Source: a virus
Length of the DNA: 37,841 bases
Reading direction: 5' to 3' (one strand)
IMG/VR virus record: IMGVR_UViG_3300046167_000014
Coordinates: 1 to 37,841 of that record
The translations under genes and the position numbers were made by a program. Below the pieces are notes generated by a model. It had not been told where the DNA came from. It searched no databases and worked only from the letters and a program-made list of their open reading frames with translations. Below, one piece after another: positions 211 through 16,442 of the stretch (positions are counted from its first letter, which is position 1; each line of letters starts with the position of its first letter).

Positions 211-625
211 TTTGTTTGTTTTTATCTATTTTTTTCAATCACTTGTCATTTTATTACGATTAGCTATTTACATTCTTTGCACGATCTGCGCTTAATACAG
301 TATCGAAAGCGAGGGCAGATCAGCCGCAAGGCTCGACACCATGACCAAGCCAAGATAACGCTAGATAACCCTTAAACGCTACGGCAACCTAGGGCTAGGC
401 ATAGAGAATAAAAGAATAGACTACCGAATACGAATATGACTAGACAGCCTAAACAGAATATGTAAGACTAAGAGAATAGAAGAACACATACGCTTGATAG
501 CGATAAGACAACCGAAGTCCGTGGAACGGCGTGGCTACAGACCCTATAAAATCCTAGCAGTAGCTGGCAAGGTGGGGCGTAGGTCTAGGCCAAGCTAGGG
601 TGGAGTCCGATAGCAAGGACAAATC

Positions 626-941
626 CCTAGCTGTTACAAGGTGCAATGGTGTACCTATAACGCTAGGAGTAGTAGCATGAAAACCAAGACAATTAAAGTA
701 TTAGGTAAGACAGTAGCAGTATATGGCAAGCGTCCAAGAGTGAATAAGTATCGCTTCGGCATGTCTAATGGCTCAACATTTATGGGCTTTCATACAGGAC
801 TTATGAGCCGTTACTTGTCTTTTCCTATGTTAGCAAAGCGTAAATTTGGTGGTGTTAAAGACATTCAACAAGTCTATTGACAAGCCAAGGGCAACGATGG
901 TAATCCCTTAGAGACTATCGTTGTACCTTGTAACAGCTAGG
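626..941 (+). promoter_or_regulatory. Two related leader hairpins with possible long-range pairing
   Basis: Bases 626-643 can fold locally onto 652-667, covering the GGAG at 666-669 of the 677 gene. Bases 886-901 can fold onto 914-930, leaving free the AGGAG that serves the 951 gene. Alternatively 626-651 can pair with 916-941 over 26 contiguous base pairs, 17 of them perfect Watson-Crick (626-642 with 925-941) and four of the rest G-U. That pairing frees the first ribosome binding site and covers the second. The two right arms are similar in sequence (tgtacct, then taac, then gctaggagta), so the element may be a duplicated leader and the cross-pairing a by-product. The switching role is inferred. 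Confidence 0.45.
677..880 (+). CDS. Small basic early protein, unknown
   Basis: A 67-residue protein starting MKTKTIKVLGKTV and rich in Lys and Arg. I do not recognise a family. The ATG at 677 is chosen over the open frame's upstream ATG (641) because GGAG at 666-669 is well spaced before it, and because 641 falls inside the leader hairpin. It lies between the two arms of the inverted repeat 626-642/925-941. Its place as the first gene of the left end fits an early host-takeover protein, but nothing in the sequence shows that. Confidence 0.6.
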   Translation: MKTKTIKVLGKTVAVYGKRPRVNKYRFGMSNGSTFMGFHTGLMSRYLSFPMLAKRKFGGVKDIQQVY

Positions 942-950
942 AGTAAGAAC

Positions 951-1055
951 ATGGACTTTTTGATTGGATTTATTTTCGTGTTAGGCATTACAGGGTTTAC
1001 CTTGTTTATTGCTGATATGATTGCGGCAATCTGTAACGACTACTTTGGAGGCTAA
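951..1055 (+). CDS. 34-residue single-pass membrane peptide
   Basis: The short reading frame begins MDFLIGFIFVLGITGFTLF and ends NDYFGG before TAA. Residues 3-28 are almost wholly hydrophobic, so the product is probably a one-span membrane peptide. AGGAG at 939-943 precedes the ATG. The GGAG inside its own last codons (1047-1050) serves as ribosome binding site for the next gene at 1058, so the two are probably translationally coupled. Its binding site lies in the right arm of the long-range RNA pairing. Function unknown. Confidence 0.55.
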   Translation: MDFLIGFIFVLGITGFTLFIADMIAAICNDYFGG

Positions 1056-3361: not shown

Positions 3362-3513
3362 AAATATACATAGCAGTATTGGGTTTACTTCCAGTCCTTC
3401 TTGTGGTATTTATAACTATATCTTCACTCATAACTTTATTGGGGGAAAAACGTGCCAACACTAGAAGAACAGATAGAACTAGAACTGGAGATGCTACAAG
3501 CAGGTGTCAATAG
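3358..3513 (+). CDS. Possible small membrane protein overlapping RNA polymerase start
   Basis: A TTG at 3358, inside the preceding stop and about ten bases after GAGG, opens a 51-codon frame beginning (M)KIYIAVLGLLPVLLVVF. Residues 3-28 are a strong membrane span, followed by an Arg/Thr-rich tail that is read from the first 60 bases of the RNA polymerase gene in another frame. The hydrophobic part (3358-3445) lies in otherwise non-coding sequence, which supports it; the TTG start and overlap count against it. Confidence 0.35.
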   Translation: MKIYIAVLGLLPVLLVVFITISSLITLLGEKRANTRRTDRTRTGDATSRCQ

Positions 3514-4225
3514 ATATCAACATAACACTAACAAGCTACTAGAGAAGGGTATTGAGAGCAACACACAGCACGGCAGAGCAGCCATAGCTGGTGTCGTTAA
3601 TGCCTTGGCTGATGGTGTAGTAGATATACAAAAGGACACCACATCCAACCGTGATATTGCCAAGAAAAAATTAAGCGGGATGGATGCACACAAGATAGCC
3701 TACCTTACTCTGGTGTCAGTGGTTGACGAAGTGTCAAAGCACTACACTCTAACCAAGGTGGCTCGTATCGTAGGGATGAACGTGGAATTGCAGAAGCGTT
3801 TGACCCAGTGGATTGAGTCGGATGGTAAGCCAGCCAAGCTGCTTATCAAGAAGGCTAATGAGAAGAGCAGTAAGTTACACAAGAGGCAGGGCTTGGTTCA
3901 CAAGCTTAACTCTGGTGGACACAAGGAAACAGAGTGGACTAACGAGGAACGTATCCATGTGGGTATGCGGCTCATAGATAAGGTCATTGTCAAGACAGGG
4001 TTGGTCAAGCTAAGCAAGCATAGACAACGCAACAACAAGACAGTCACCTACCTTGAGGCTACACCTGATACCCTAGAGTGGGTTCGTAAGTTTAACCTGT
4101 ATCAAGAAACCAAGAGGCCACGCTACGCACCCTCTATCATTCCACCCAAGGATTGGACTGATGTTATAGGTGGTGGGTATCACAGTGAGGCTATCAACGA
4201 TCTAGCATTAGTGAGGGTACATTGA
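3452..4225 (+). CDS. T7-like RNA polymerase, N-terminal part
   Basis: 257 residues matching the N-terminal domain of single-subunit phage RNA polymerases (promoter binding and early RNA handling). It ends with DWTDVIGGGYHSEAINDLALVRVH, where T7 polymerase has the very similar PWTGITGGGY and PLALVRTH and then runs straight on. GTG at 3452 is chosen because GGGGG at 3441-3445 precedes it. The frame stops at 4223-4225 and homology continues at once in the -1 frame (gene at 4222). One missing base near 4223 would give H-S-K, as in T7's TH-SKK, so a lost base or a real split into two coupled subunits are both possible. Confidence 0.85.
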   Translation: MPTLEEQIELELEMLQAGVNRYQHNTNKLLEKGIESNTQHGRAAIAGVVNALADGVVDIQKDTTSNRDIAKKKLSGMDAHKIAYLTLVSVVDEVSKHYTLTKVARIVGMNVELQKRLTQWIESDGKPAKLLIKKANEKSSKLHKRQGLVHKLNSGGHKETEWTNEERIHVGMRLIDKVIVKTGLVKLSKHRQRNNKTVTYLEATPDTLEWVRKFNLYQETKRPRYAPSIIPPKDWTDVIGGGYHSEAINDLALVRVH

Positions 4226-5886
4226 AACAGAACAGTAAACTATACCTTGATAGACTAAGGCAGCAGGACATGAGCCTAGAGTACAAGGCAGTCAATGGAC
4301 TACAGCGTACACCGTGGACTATTGATACCAAAGTGCTAGAGGTTATGCGTCAGGCATGGGACAGTGGACAGGAGTGGGCTGGTCTACCACCTAGGTTTGA
4401 CCTAGACCTACCAGCCTATCCCTTTGATGTAGACCCACCAGAACTAACAGAGGAGCAGCACAACCAGTACAAGGACTGGGCTAAGAAGCGTAGCCAAATC
4501 TATACGCACAACGGCAAGTCTATGTCACGCAGGATACAGGTGGAGAGGACGCTACAGATTGCAGAGGACTACGCTAAGCACTCAGAGTTTTACTTTGTAT
4601 GGCAGCTAGACTTCAGGTCACGCAAGTATCCTGTCGAGTCCTTCATGTCACCACAGGTGGCTGACTGGGGTAAGGCATTGTTACTGTTTAACAATGGTTT
4701 TCCTATCAACAACTACGAGGATGCCCAGTGGCTTGCCATACATGGGGCTAACCTGTTTGGTAATGACAAGGTGTCGTTTACTGACCGCATCCAGTGGGCA
4801 TGGGATAACGAGGCTGACATTGTTAAGTGTGCTGAGAACCCACTAGACTATATGTGGTGGACTACAGCAGACAAGCCTTGGCAATTCCTAGGCTGGTGCT
4901 TTGAGTGGTATGGCCTACTGCGTGAGGGGTGGGGTTTCTATACTCACCTACCCTGTGCTGCTGATGGTAGCTGCAATGGACTACAACATCTGTCTGCTAT
5001 CCTACTAGATGAGAAGGGTGGCAGGGCTACTAACCTAGTGCCTAACGATGTACCGTCAGACATCTACTCAGATGTAGCAGCACGAGCAACTGCCCTAGTT
5101 ACTGCTGATGCAGAGCAGGGTGATGAGCTTGCAAAGAAGTGTCTAGAGTTTGGAATAGACAGATCACTAACCAAGAGACCAGTGATGATTGTACCCTACT
5201 CCGGTACACAACATGCCTGTCGTGAGTATATACAGGAGGCTATTGATGACAAAATAATTAAGAAGGGTATGCCTAATCCATTTGGTGATGACCTGTTTGG
5301 TGTGGGTGTATACCTAGCCAAGCATGTGTGGCAGGGTATCAACGAGACTATCTCTTCAGCACGGCAGGTTATGGACTATGTGAAGGAGGTAGGCTCACAC
5401 TACGGTGCAGCTAATAAGCACATGGAGTGGATCACACCAACAAACTTTCTTGTGGTGCAGCCGTACTACAATACAAAGAAGCGGCTCATCAAGACACACA
5501 TTGATGGTAACTTAGTCTACCTTAGTTACCAGCAGGAGCTACAGGACAGTGTGAACCGTTCTCGTATCTCGACAGGGGCTAGTCCAAACTTCATCCACTC
5601 GTTGGATGCAGCAGCCCTGACGTTCACCATCAACAAGTGTCTCGACACTAACATGATGGACTTTAGCATGGTGCATGACAGCTATGGGACACACAGTCCT
5701 AACATGGGTATCATGAGCCACACACTACGCGAAGCCTTTGTAGATATGTACCAGAAATATGACGTACTACAAGAGCTACGTGACCATGCTGTCGCCACCC
5801 TTGGTGACAGTACAATACCACAGCCTCCGACTAAGGGTAGCTTGAACCTATCAAGGGTGATGGAGTCAGACTATTTCTTTGCCTGA
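4222..5886 (+). CDS. T7-like RNA polymerase, catalytic part
   Basis: 554 residues covering palm, fingers and C-terminus. Catalytic residues are all present: Asp248 in AADGSCNGLQH, Lys318 and Tyr326 in SLTKRPVMIVPYSG, and Asp486 in MVHDSYGT. The C-terminus SLNLSRVMESDYFFA matches the T7 end (LESDFAFA), so the enzyme is complete at that side. Both parts sum to 811 residues against 883 in T7. The open frame begins at a TTG that overlaps the previous stop. The specificity-loop region (about residues 410-440) differs greatly from T7, which fits a promoter unlike T7's. It should transcribe the middle and late genes from the sites at 5888 and 14372. Confidence 0.9.
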   Translation: MKQNSKLYLDRLRQQDMSLEYKAVNGLQRTPWTIDTKVLEVMRQAWDSGQEWAGLPPRFDLDLPAYPFDVDPPELTEEQHNQYKDWAKKRSQIYTHNGKSMSRRIQVERTLQIAEDYAKHSEFYFVWQLDFRSRKYPVESFMSPQVADWGKALLLFNNGFPINNYEDAQWLAIHGANLFGNDKVSFTDRIQWAWDNEADIVKCAENPLDYMWWTTADKPWQFLGWCFEWYGLLREGWGFYTHLPCAADGSCNGLQHLSAILLDEKGGRATNLVPNDVPSDIYSDVAARATALVTADAEQGDELAKKCLEFGIDRSLTKRPVMIVPYSGTQHACREYIQEAIDDKIIKKGMPNPFGDDLFGVGVYLAKHVWQGINETISSARQVMDYVKEVGSHYGAANKHMEWITPTNFLVVQPYYNTKKRLIKTHIDGNLVYLSYQQELQDSVNRSRISTGASPNFIHSLDAAALTFTINKCLDTNMMDFSMVHDSYGTHSPNMGIMSHTLREAFVDMYQKYDVLQELRDHAVATLGDSTIPQPPTKGSLNLSRVMESDYFFA

Positions 5887-8762: not shown

Positions 8763-8780
8763 CTAGTGCGGAGACACAGT

Positions 8781-9992
8781 ATGGAATACATATGGGACTT
8801 AGAAGCAGACAACCTCTATGATGAGGTGACACAAGTTTGGTGTCATGTCTTCAGGGATGTACACACTGATGAGGTACACACCTTTGACCCAACACAGACG
8901 CAAGAAGCCTTAGAGTTTATGGACAATGCAAAGACTTTGATTGGTCATAACATCATAGACTACGACTTGCGTGTGATGAAGAAACTACACAACTATACCT
9001 TCAAGGGTACAGTAGTAGATACGTTGGTATACTCTAGAACAATATGGCCTCATGTAAAAGAACTAGACTTCAAGCTGAATAAGGCGAAACACTTTCCCCT
9101 TAAGCTGATTGGTAGTCATAGTCTTAAGGCATGGGGCTACAGACTGGGAGAATTAAAAGGTGATTTCAATAGTGGCAGCGAGAGCTTTGCAACATACACC
9201 CCTGAGATGCTCGACTACTGTGTGCAGGACACAGAAGTTACTGCAAAATTATATTCCAAAATTATGGAGAAAAATTTTAGCAAAGAAGCATTAGACTTAG
9301 AGACTAACATACACACCCTGCTAATTAAACAACAAGAAAACGGTTTTCCTTTTGATGTACCTAAGGCTGAAGCCTTGTTTGCTAAGCTACAGGGACGCAA
9401 GCAGGAGATCGAAGACAAACTTCAAGAGACCTTTGAGCCTACTATCGTGGAGCTTAAGACAAAGACCAAGACTATCCCATTCAATCCTGCATCAAGGCAG
9501 CAGATTGCTGACCGACTGATGAAGCGAGGCTGGGAGCCTGAGGTATTCACTGACAGTGGAGACCCTAAGGTAGATGAGACTATCCTATCTGGTATTGATA
9601 TGCCTGAGGCAAAACTACTCAACGAGTATCTCATGCTTAACAAACGTATAGGCCAGCTAGGTACAGGCAAACAGGCTTGGTTGAAGATGCAGACAGGAGG
9701 CAAGATACATGGACGAGTTAACCACATGGGTGCTGTTACCTCTCGTTGTACTCATTCCAATCCTAACACAGCCCAAGTGCCTAGCGTTGGTGCGCCATAT
9801 GGCAAGGAGTGTAGAGAACTATTCATCTCTCCTAGCGGGTATAGTCTACTTGGTGCTGATGCTTCTGGTCTTGAGTTACGCTGTCTCGCTCACTATATGG
9901 CTGCTTATGACGATGGATCGTATGCTGATGTGGTCTTGAATGGTGACATTCATACTGCTAATCAGAAGGCTGCTGGTCTAGGACTCACGTAA
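8781..9992 (+). CDS. DNA polymerase (T7 gp5-like), exonuclease and motif A part
   Basis: Family A phage polymerase. The ATG at 8781 has GGAG at 8770-8773; the longer GTG start at 8766 would overlap that site. The 3'-5' exonuclease motifs are present: Asp6/Glu8 in IWDLEAD, LIGHNIIDYDL, and YCVQDTEV. Polymerase motif A DASGLELRCLAHYM and NGDIHTANQKAAG are nearly identical to T7. The frame ends at 9990-9992 immediately before motif B, and homology continues one base later in the +1 frame (next entry). The break lies between AAGLGL and RNQAKTF; an extra base at about 9987 would explain it. As read, this piece alone would lack the fingers and the catalytic HDE. Confidence 0.88.
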   Translation: MEYIWDLEADNLYDEVTQVWCHVFRDVHTDEVHTFDPTQTQEALEFMDNAKTLIGHNIIDYDLRVMKKLHNYTFKGTVVDTLVYSRTIWPHVKELDFKLNKAKHFPLKLIGSHSLKAWGYRLGELKGDFNSGSESFATYTPEMLDYCVQDTEVTAKLYSKIMEKNFSKEALDLETNIHTLLIKQQENGFPFDVPKAEALFAKLQGRKQEIEDKLQETFEPTIVELKTKTKTIPFNPASRQQIADRLMKRGWEPEVFTDSGDPKVDETILSGIDMPEAKLLNEYLMLNKRIGQLGTGKQAWLKMQTGGKIHGRVNHMGAVTSRCTHSNPNTAQVPSVGAPYGKECRELFISPSGYSLLGADASGLELRCLAHYMAAYDDGSYADVVLNGDIHTANQKAAGLGLT

Positions 9993-10488
9993 CCAAGCCA
10001 AGACATTCATCTATGGATTCCTCTACGGCTCAGGTGATGAGAAGACAGGCAAGATCATAGGCAAGGGTGCGAAGGAAGGTAAGGCAATCAAGACTAAGTT
10101 CTTGAAGAAACTACCAGCACTCAAGTACCTTAAGGATGCGGTAGCCAAGGCAGCAGACAAGCGTGGGTTTGTTAAGGGATTGGATGGACGTATCATTCCT
10201 ATCCGACACAGCCATGCTGCACTCAACACACTACTCCAGAGTTGTGGTGCAATCATCTGTAAGACTTGGTACGTATTTATATGTCGTGCCTTAGAGAAGG
10301 CTAAGCTAGACGCAAGAGTTGTAGCGTTTGTACATGATGAAGTTCAAGTAGTAGTAAAGAAGGGACAGGAAGATGAAGCAGGGCGAGTTATTCTTAAGTG
10401 TATGCGGGACGTTGAAGACCACTTCAAGTTCAGATGTAGACTCGACAGTGAGTACAAGTACGGAGACAACTGGGCAGACACCCACTGA
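9988..10488 (+). CDS. DNA polymerase, C-terminal part (motifs B and C)
   Basis: Continues the polymerase in the +1 frame: RNQAKTFIYGFLYGSGDEK is motif B (the O helix, Arg and Lys contacting the incoming nucleotide), ALNTLLQSCGAIICK follows, and motif C is AFVHDEVQV. It ends FKFRCRLDSEYKYGDNWADTH, matching the T7 end (FRCLLDTE...NWAICH). The first ATG in this frame is 10102, after motif B, so independent translation would give a fragment without the O helix. Both parts sum to about 570 residues, shorter than T7 (704) but enough for all catalytic motifs. No intron-sized insertion separates the pieces. Confidence 0.85.
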   Translation, partial: RNQAKTFIYGFLYGSGDEKTGKIIGKGAKEGKAIKTKFLKKLPALKYLKDAVAKAADKRGFVKGLDGRIIPIRHSHAALNTLLQSCGAIICKTWYVFICRALEKAKLDARVVAFVHDEVQVVVKKGQEDEAGRVILKCMRDVEDHFKFRCRLDSEYKYGDNWADTH

Positions 10489-10519
10489 GTATGATAGACA
10501 CCTAGAAAATAAAACAAGA

Positions 10520-10951
10520 ATGACGATCAATGGTAATCGTTACAGGGTAGGTAATCCTAATCATCCCTACCATACAATCTATAAAGACAAGGGTTTTGAA
10601 GCAGTCTATGAAGCGATGGGTTTAATAGAAGGTGCTGCTACAAAAATTAGAAAAGAAGTCTTAGCCCTTTATGATAAGCACGTAGGGGGAGAGGTGTATG
10701 TTATTGGAAATACATCTTGGCCTGAGTGGGTGAAGATAGGTATGGCTGTAGATGCTATGGATAGGTTAAAGGGTTATCAAACTGGTAGTCCTTTTAGAGA
10801 TTATAAACTACTATACTCTGTGTCTACTAACGACAGACGAAAGGCTGAGGCTGCTGCACACAAAGCTGCTGAGAAGATAGCAGAGCGTAGGGGTGAGTGG
10901 TTCAAGATGTCTGTTGGTCAGGCGAAGGAGTGTATCCAGAATGGACTTTGA
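10520..10951 (+). CDS. GIY-YIG type nuclease (T5orf172/MUG113-like), probable homing endonuclease
   Basis: About 143 residues from ATG 10520; the frame is open upstream into the polymerase gene, but that part is a shadow. The C-terminal domain has the GIY-YIG pattern of the T5orf172/MUG113 group: GEVYVIG, then VKIGMAVDAMDRLKGYQTGS with the conserved Arg, YKLLYSV, a Glu/His helix (AEAAAHKAAEKI) and GEWFKM. The N-terminal 50 residues may form a DNA-binding part. Free-standing homing nucleases often sit beside the gene they cut; here that is DNA polymerase, a common target. No good ribosome binding site is seen, so the exact start is uncertain. Confidence 0.7.
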   Translation: MTINGNRYRVGNPNHPYHTIYKDKGFEAVYEAMGLIEGAATKIRKEVLALYDKHVGGEVYVIGNTSWPEWVKIGMAVDAMDRLKGYQTGSPFRDYKLLYSVSTNDRRKAEAAAHKAAEKIAERRGEWFKMSVGQAKECIQNGL

Positions 10952-14844: not shown

Positions 14845-15027
14845 ATGGCATATGAGAATAGTGGCGGCGGTGCTGCTAAGCGTTATGCCCAGTGCGAGTC
14901 ATCAAGAGATATGTTCTTGCAGCGTGGGCGTGATGCAGCAGAGCTAACAATACCTATGCTCTTGCCTCCTGATGGACATAGTAGTAGTACAATATACCAG
15001 ACCCCCTTATCAGGGAGTTGGTGCTAG
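14845..15027 (+). CDS. Portal protein (T7 gp8-like), N-terminal fragment
   Basis: Start MAYENSGGGAAKRYAQCESS at ATG 14845. It carries the portal N-terminus up to LTIPMLLPPDGHSSSTIYQT, matching T7 YTIPSLFPKD...STDYQT. The frame ends SGSWC at 15025-15027. An extra T at 15007/15008 explains the break; removing it gives YQTPYQGVGARGVNNLASKL, the T7 YQTPWQAVGARGLNNLASKL. The portal forms the 12-subunit vertex through which DNA is packed and to which the tail binds. Confidence 0.8.
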   Translation: MAYENSGGGAAKRYAQCESSRDMFLQRGRDAAELTIPMLLPPDGHSSSTIYQTPLSGSWC

Positions 15028-15514
15028 AGGTGTAAACAACCTAGCATCTAAACTGCTTCTGGCTCTACTACCACCTAACAGTCCATTCTTTAGACTTACC
15101 ATTGATGACTTTGACCTTGCTGAATTAGCAGGTGGAGAAGCACGTGGTGCAGTCGAGGAAGCGTTGTCTCGTATTGAACGAGCAGCTATGCAAGAGATCG
15201 AATCCAAGGCAATGCGTGTTCCAGTGTTTGAAGCACTGAAGCAGCTTATTGTTACAGGCAATGCTCTTCTCTTTATGCCTAAAGAGGGAGGCATGAAAGT
15301 GTTTCGTCTTGACCGTTATGTGGTTAAGCGGGATGCTATGGGTAATGTCTTAGAGATTATTACTAAAGAAAGCGTCAATGCCTTGATGCTTCCTCCAGAA
15401 ATTCAAGAACTCATACAGGCTTCTGAGTCTGAGATGAAGAACCTTGAGCTATACACCCACCTTACAAGAACACAAAAGGGCTGGGAAGTTTATCAAGAAG
15501 GTGTCAGGGTTTGA
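14972..15514 (+). CDS. Portal protein, middle fragment
   Basis: Homology begins about 15008 (YQGVGARGVNNLASKLLLAL) and runs through VFEALKQLIVTGNALLFMP, FRLDRYVVKRDAMGNVLEII and YTHL, all matching T7 gp8 in order. The frame stops at 15512-15514 after YQEGVRV. Homology resumes in the next frame as VSGFEIPNSRGKF, so one extra G at 15500/15501 is likely. The codons before 15008 in this frame are a shadow of the N-terminal piece. Confidence 0.8.
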   Translation: MDIVVVQYTRPPYQGVGARGVNNLASKLLLALLPPNSPFFRLTIDDFDLAELAGGEARGAVEEALSRIERAAMQEIESKAMRVPVFEALKQLIVTGNALLFMPKEGGMKVFRLDRYVVKRDAMGNVLEIITKESVNALMLPPEIQELIQASESEMKNLELYTHLTRTQKGWEVYQEGVRV

Positions 15515-16442
15515 AATCCCTAACAGCCGTGGTAAATTTAAACTAGACGAAAGCCCCTTCATCCCACTACGGTTTACTAGAGTAGACGGTGAGGACTATG
15601 GCAGGGGTTATGTAGAAGAATACATCGGAGACCTTAAGAGCCTTGAGGCTTTGACTAAAGCTATCGTAGAGGGTGCTGCGGCATCAGCTAAGGTATTGTT
15701 CCTAGTCAAACCTAATGGCACAACTAAGGCACGAGTACTAGCTGAAAGCCCTAACGGTGCTATCGTTAGTGGTGATGCTACTGATGTCTCCACCCTACAG
15801 GTACAGAAGTCAACTGACTTTAGAGTAGCTATGGAGTCTGGACGTAACATTAGTGAGCGTCTAGCATATGCCTTCCTAATGAACAGTGCAGTTCAGCGTC
15901 AGGCTGAGCGTGTTACTGCTGAAGAAGTACGGTTCATGGCACAGGAACTAGAGTCTGCCCTAGGTGGTGTGTATTCTATCCTGTCACAAGAACTACAGAT
16001 GCCTCTGGTTAACAAGATACTATCCATCATGGAACGCTCTGGCAAGATGCCTAAGCTACCTAAGGATACTGTTAGCCCTACTGTTGTTACTGGTATCGAA
16101 GCCCTTGGACGAGGGCAAGACCTTAACAAACTAGCTACCTTCCTGCAATACCTACAGCCACTAGGCCCAGAGGTTATTGCACGTGAGATGAACCTTAACG
16201 ATTACATTGATCGACTAGGTGCTAGTCTTGGTATTGATACCAATGGTCTTATCAAGTCTGCTGAGCAGAAGGCTCAAGAAGAAGCAGAGATGATGCAGAA
16301 GCAACAGCAAGCAATGCAGATGCAGACTATGCAGCAGATGGCAGTACGTGGTACACCTGAGATGATTAAGTCAGGTGGTGCTGCTGCTATGATGACACAA
16401 GCACAGGCACAGCAACAACAAGAACAGGAAGGGCAGGGCTAA
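15444..16442 (+). CDS. Portal protein, C-terminal fragment
   Basis: Real portal sequence begins about 15501. Conserved blocks: PFIPLRFTRVDGEDYGRGYV, YIGDLKSLEALTKAIVEGAA, SAVQRQAERVTAEEVRFMAQ, LESALGGVYSILSQELQMPL and GIEALGRGQDLNKL, each with a close T7 gp8 counterpart. The C-terminus is a Gln/Met-rich tail (QKQQQAMQMQTMQQMA), also as in T7. With both breaks repaired, the portal spans 14845-16442, about 530 residues, near T7's 536. Confidence 0.85.
   Translation: MSYTPTLQEHKRAGKFIKKVSGFEIPNSRGKFKLDESPFIPLRFTRVDGEDYGRGYVEEYIGDLKSLEALTKAIVEGAAASAKVLFLVKPNGTTKARVLAESPNGAIVSGDATDVSTLQVQKSTDFRVAMESGRNISERLAYAFLMNSAVQRQAERVTAEEVRFMAQELESALGGVYSILSQELQMPLVNKILSIMERSGKMPKLPKDTVSPTVVTGIEALGRGQDLNKLATFLQYLQPLGPEVIAREMNLNDYIDRLGASLGIDTNGLIKSAEQKAQEEAEMMQKQQQAMQMQTMQQMAVRGTPEMIKSGGAAAMMTQAQAQQQQEQEGQG

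Follow-up and report, generated by a model that had tools for sequence, protein, structure and literature searches.

What is the function of the competing stems that surround the first small gene of a T7-like phage genome, and do they act as RNA or as DNA? The question arises near the left end of an IMG/VR virus record of 37,841 bases, the whole of which was analysed and is called the window here. A first-pass annotation, made from the letters of this DNA, described one hairpin before the gene and another after it, together with a long-range pairing between their arms, and proposed a reciprocal translational switch in which one state covers the ribosome binding site of the first gene and frees that of the next gene, and the other state does the reverse. 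It also cautioned that the right arms of the hairpins are alike and that the cross-pairing may simply follow from a duplicated leader.

The window genome encodes a T7-type single-subunit RNA polymerase (phrog_414), a primase-helicase, a DNA polymerase, a ribonucleotide reductase, and head and tail genes. The RNA polymerase lies in two ORFs (3452-4225 and 4222-5886) jointly spanning phrog_414 (residues 4-265 and 266-816), and two CDS for this enzyme are annotated in HTVC041P, a cultured Pelagibacter phage, as well. The head-tail adaptor likewise occupies two overlapping ORFs (14972-15514 and 15444-16442) that match successive portions of phrog_449, a pattern suggestive of a frameshift or of an error in sequencing. 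The DNA polymerase ORF (8766-10951) covers just part of phrog_17, and the ORF that follows is weakly similar to homing endonucleases. As for the first gene itself (the 677 gene, after its first position), its product had no matches in PHROGs, Pfam, or PADLOC, and AlphaFold modelled it with a pLDDT of 42 from a 17-row alignment. Since tblastn with this protein gave no match in the phage collection either, the exact element is known solely from uncultured phages.

The long-range helix (LR) between 626-651 and 916-941 consists of 26 pairs including four G-U pairs, with a perfect 17-bp core, exactly as the first-pass annotation had given it to the base; its coordinates for the hairpins at 626-667 and 886-901/914-930 were also exact. 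LR was the top inverted repeat (≤600 nt) of the whole 37.8-kb window, with a score of 54 as compared to ≤36 in two shuffled windows, and when the first 5 kb only was searched, the score was 58 against ≤36 for the shuffles. The folding of 600-1060, which that annotation had proposed as a check, placed the LR pairing in the minimum-free-energy structure (z = -3.2). Only two copies of the arms occur in the window, with no others at ≤8 mismatches. The early regions of T7, CRP-125, HTVC041P, CRP-171, and LUZ100 contained no long-range helix of comparable strength, and the best inverted repeat of the Pasto early region was at the level of its own shuffles. In Rfam release 15, the window gave no match at the gathering score and six relatives gave none at E values up to 1, and we found no earlier description of this RNA element in the literature. 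The features of the locus are listed in Table 1.

Table 1. Positions of the paired elements, ribosome sites, and genes at the left end of the window.
Feature	Positions	Strand	Remarks
P0 hairpin	593..632	+	AGCTAGGG (593-600) with CCCTAGCT (625-632); inner stem GTCC/GGAC (605-608/617-620); loop GATAGCAA
LR 5′ arm	626..651	+	pairs with 916-941
H1 upper hairpin	639..656	+	AGGTGCA-ATGG-TGTACCT, 7 bp and tetraloop; 251 of 252 cells paired (36 sequences)
SD1, Shine-Dalgarno site of the 677 gene	665..669	+	AGGAG; 665-667 within the H1 lower stem
Enclosed first gene (677 gene)	677..880	+	67-aa basic protein
TTGACA adjoining the 677 stop codon	877..882	+	conserved ahead of H2 in almost all relatives
H2 hairpin	886..930	+	886-901/914-930; forms in every haplotype
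LR 3′ arm	916..941	+	pairs with 626-651
SD2, Shine-Dalgarno site of the 951 gene	939..943	+	AGGAG; 939-941 paired in LR
Downstream gene (951 gene)	951..1055	+	34-aa putative membrane peptide; many relatives lack it or have a replacement

IMG/VR was searched for relatives using the 677 protein, an alignment of it, and two DNA patterns, which recovered 49 distinct versions of the region in which both arms are present. When 36 distinct arm sequences were aligned without gaps, LR was paired in 98.1% of the cells, whereas control registers slid along the arms paired at 26-52.3% only. Two-sided changes were seen at 13 of the 26 pairs, and the cells carrying them numbered 82 as compared to 18.8 in shuffles, which ignore relatedness. 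To correct for relatedness, changes were counted by parsimony on a tree of the enclosed gene, which is short but independent of the arms. On this tree, 31 coupled changes were found in LR, while 500 random re-pairings of the same columns, a null that takes no account of base composition differences between columns, averaged 7.8 and reached 16 at most. The related phages carry compensatory arm changes, the lack of which the first-pass annotation had named as counting against its proposal. The same tree gave only 10 coupled changes in H1, and single-side changes were 48/50 in LR and 28/57 in H1.

Individual variants illustrate this coupling. In L150, CTAGTTG in the 5′ arm is matched by CAACTAG in the far arm, while the adjacent right arm still reads GCTAGG. 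Further compensatory variants are ACTAGG with CCTAGT (L172 and L176), ACGAGG with CCTCGT (L168), and CTATTAC with GTAATAG (L011), the last having an A-C intermediate in L008, and in the L016, L019, L024, and L162 groups LR is kept in largely different sequence. The helix usually spans 23-29 bp across relatives, and its uninterrupted run has a median of 26 bp (18-29), as compared to medians of 8 and 10 for the longest local runs; a mismatch cuts it to 18 bp in 5 of the 49 haplotypes (the L016, L017, L020, and L023 group and L008). L171 retains a 25-bp helix even though 115-139 nt separate its 5′ arm, which is also the H1 arm, from the start codon. The data support direct selection on the LR helix itself. 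In L163/L117, the gene and H2 are present, while the available upstream sequence of 207 nt shows no 5′ arm; IMG/VR contigs are partial, so that a loss is unproven. There, a TTGCAT-18-TATAAT promoter stands upstream of the 677 homologue where H1 would be. The divergent 677 homologues of L133-L137 and L152 are followed by other strong hairpins (GGTGGTGGTAG...CTATCACCACC), for which no strong long-range partner was seen.

The local stems were also conserved, but unequally. P0, an additional conserved hairpin upstream that the first-pass annotation had overlooked, forms in all haplotypes but those of the L019, L021, L024, and L168 types; the L016 group shows a weaker analogue. Compensatory variants of P0 occur in L006, L026, L109, L127, L162, L172, and L184, and the changes affect both stems (GCTAGGG/CCCTAGC, GCTAGGCAT/ATGCCTAGC, GCTAGGCGT/ACGCCTAGC, ACTAGGG/CCCTAGT, and ACAGGGG/CCCCTGT). 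While the upper part of H1 is nearly always paired, its lower stem, which extends to 626/667 and covers SD1, is mostly not kept, 6 of its 9 pairs being formed in ca. 40-75% of the sequences. H2 is a local hairpin of ca. 12-18 pairs, mostly interrupted by bulges or mismatches, with fold energies of -11 to -26 kcal/mol and a loop of about 3-16 nt; in its core, 282 of 288 cells were paired with 50 G-U and no A-C combinations, its left arm having been placed by best fit, which favours pairing. The TTGACA 5′ of H2 persists even in relatives whose stop codon does not overlap it. It is possibly a -35 element, though its distance to a -10 varies. A sigma-70 promoter within H2, considered because of this conserved hexamer, was rejected on account of that variable spacing and of a promoter scan of the window, which shows none there.

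If LR resulted merely from the duplication of a leader hairpin, its cross-pairing would reflect the similarity of the two right arms, and these arms are indeed alike; moreover, the cobaviruses ICBM1 and ICBM2 have similar repeated leader hairpins. However, the far arm is paired at 98% as compared to 40-75% for most pairs of the adjacent lower stem, and coupled change is concentrated in LR, the adjacent right arm of H1 failing to co-vary where the far arm does, as in L150. The caution of the first-pass annotation is largely refuted by these counts, and we regard this origin as highly improbable. A less remote but still improbable alternative is that the arms are inverted repeats acting at the DNA level, such as promoter or operator copies, transposon ends, or the borders of an invertible segment, and that they do not pair as RNA. 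This would fit the exchangeable inner genes and two features of the divergent AT-rich relatives described below, namely a consensus promoter (TTGACA-16-TATAAT) that overlaps the 5′ arm in several of them and recurrent U-U mismatches. DNA repeats would, on the other hand, give equal numbers of G-U-type and A-C-type differences between the arms, whereas the observed ratios were ca. 135:7 in LR, 67:0 in H2, and 34:0 in P0; the cells share ancestry and the effective numbers are therefore smaller, but the direction is equal in all three helices. This strong G-U excess points to RNA structure, as the first-pass annotation had surmised from the G-U pairs of the window. The H2 loop is also variable in length, an inverted segment was seen in none of the relatives, and the promoter scan of the window found no consensus promoter overlapping the LR arm. 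A repeated promoter of the phage RNA polymerase was rejected, as the arm is present just twice in the window. We conclude that transcription in the window's clade runs through the 5′ arm and that the region acts as RNA.

Since positions 626-632 are common to the P0 3′ strand and the LR 5′ arm, LR in the window excludes P0, H1, and H2 together, in agreement with the mutually exclusive pairings proposed at first. We compared the energies of the two states by forcing each in the full segment of 22 haplotypes. LR was favoured over the forced local folds in all 22, by 0.5-22 kcal/mol (2.3 kcal/mol in the window), and this small energy gap lets the kinetic order of folding matter. As LR and the local folds exclude each other, the two-state idea holds.

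Based on these results, we propose a cis-acting two-state refolding RNA element that encloses the first early gene, whose long duplex is a likely RNase III site and whose refolding would time expression; we assign this reading a probability of roughly 0.45. In the first state, which the conservation of the local stems shows, P0 and the small H1 stand before the gene and H2 after it. In the second, which covariation shows, the 5′ arm is released from P0 and H1 and pairs with the 3′ arm released from H2, looping out the gene. From the order of transcription, the local hairpins would form first and LR only after the 3′ arm has been synthesised. TTAC (634-637) and GTAA (926-929), which are nearly invariant and adjoin the local stems or fall between them, could then serve as a toehold from which the RNA refolds to the more stable LR. 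RNase III is said to need at least two helical turns (PMC2956633), and since only the LR state has a duplex of this length, LR is the likely RNase III site. Cleavage there would free the message of the first gene from the leader and the downstream message, much like the flanking stems of rRNA, and refolding would set when the first gene is expressed relative to the other genes of the early operon. In the icaR mRNA, a 5′-3′ pairing that was tested creates an RNase III substrate and blocks initiation (PMC3868564). Taken together, the length of the LR duplex, the requirement of RNase III, and the icaR precedent lead us to favour processing of the first-gene message; more broadly, a duplex of ca. 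26 bp probably serves either RNase III processing or fold-back control. In phages of the window type, LR would also hide part of SD2 until it is cut, and we favour the view that such masking of the next ribosome site is a lineage-specific addition.

The reciprocal switch proposed at first, in which the local hairpins cover SD1 and free SD2 while LR does the reverse, agrees with the window itself, in its geometry and in the calculated unpaired probabilities, that of SD1 rising from 0.37 in the local state to 0.71 in the LR state and that of SD2 falling from 0.64 to 0.36; LR also touches SD2 in most A-type haplotypes. As a general function it is unlikely, because the H1 lower stem over SD1 is poorly conserved, SD1 shows no consistent change between the states across the 22 haplotypes and in many is unaffected or shifted the wrong way, LR leaves SD2 clear in L017, L019, L021, L024, L162, and L168, the gene start of L171 is at least 115 nt from H1, and the downstream genes vary and are not homologous between relatives. 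The enclosed gene is exchangeable as well, other small ORFs replacing it in L109/L120, L185, L192, and L211 while the frame stays. Given these exchanges, the distance in L171, and the inconsistent behaviour of SD1 and SD2, what is conserved is the helix around a first gene rather than the masking of a particular start. About equally unlikely, in our estimate, is a fold-back of the hok type, in which metastable local hairpins at the 5′ end would give way to pairing with the 3′ region, making the full-length message stable and silent or delayed. In its favour, the same logic would apply here, a 3′ arm taking over from metastable 5′ hairpins; LR is the thermodynamically preferred state, and PMC3868564 discusses the hok and icaR parallels. 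Against it, the LR helix does not pair SD1, and the enclosed proteins are basic and match no toxin family.

Returning to the refolding element that encloses the first gene, we found a similar arrangement, with a GGGTATAATGCCC apex and a GCATTGTACCC far arm, in divergent, often AT-rich phages that carry a DUF7178 gene (the 1058 gene of the window) without the 677 gene and enclose different small ORFs of 59-118 aa. Because of the promoter overlap in several AT-rich members, and because some of their mismatches are non-wobble, the same RNA mechanism is not claimed there; as the promoter overlaps the arm, the matching transcript might lack the 5′ arm. Six AT-rich relatives (L230, L232, L234, L238, L240, and L242) have a promoter-like sequence inside the 5′ arm and enclose a basic protein of ca. 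118 aa, which has a weak homologue in Puniceispirillum phage HMO-2011. A wider reading, which we hold to be possible but doubtful, is that of a gene-independent RNA frame, i.e., a conserved refolding cassette for interchangeable small early genes that would act as a transcription-coupled timer, releasing or silencing them, in several marine phage groups.

Conserved long-range RNA helices within the messages of DNA phages are rarely documented, and this one combines unusually strong covariation and conserved competing hairpins with a position at the first gene of abundant marine phages. LR and its competing hairpins represent an undescribed RNA control element in many ocean T7-related phages; the evidence is drawn from sequence throughout, covariation showing the structure and the mechanism being proposed from it. 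The element offers a concrete case in which the control of early genes by co-transcriptional RNA refolding can be tested, also in cultured relatives, which have similar leader hairpins.

Among known systems, the RNase III sites of the T7 early region are local hairpins, and the processing stems of rRNA are long-range and flank the released RNA. Like the T7 sites, the present element has stems adjoining genes and is placed at a T7-like phage's first early gene, but a comparable long-range inverted repeat is missing from the early region of T7. In the cobaviruses ICBM1, ICBM2, and P12053L, leader hairpins of the form GGGTGCATC...GGGTG(C/T)ACC precede early genes and resemble this leader (ICBM1, 1151-1179 and 1479-1507; ICBM2, 1102-1130; P12053L, 260-290). 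The two copies in ICBM1 flank gp02 and can cross-pair (score 56), but cobavirus repeats are nearly identical palindromes, so that cross-pairing is trivial there, and these phages belong to a different family; a term search of the paper introducing cobaviruses (PMC6775973) found no mention of hairpins. As in the hok mRNA of plasmid R1, the 5′ hairpins are exclusive with a 3′ fold-back arm, metastability being deduced here from the energies; unlike in hok, the enclosed proteins lack a toxin family match and the helix leaves the start of the first gene uncovered. A like layout is seen in the icaR mRNA of Staphylococcus aureus, in which a region after the gene pairs with the leader within one mRNA, refolding of the 5′ part has been proposed, and the duplex is an RNase III substrate that affects initiation (PMC3868564); in the present case cleavage would follow from helix length. 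In contrast to the icaR type, SD1, when tested, lies 3′ of the LR 5′ arm and outside the helix. Also unlike icaR, covariation here keeps a helix of ca. 26 bp in numerous phage lineages, competing hairpins are conserved at either side, and the element lies in a polycistronic early region with an exchangeable enclosed gene.
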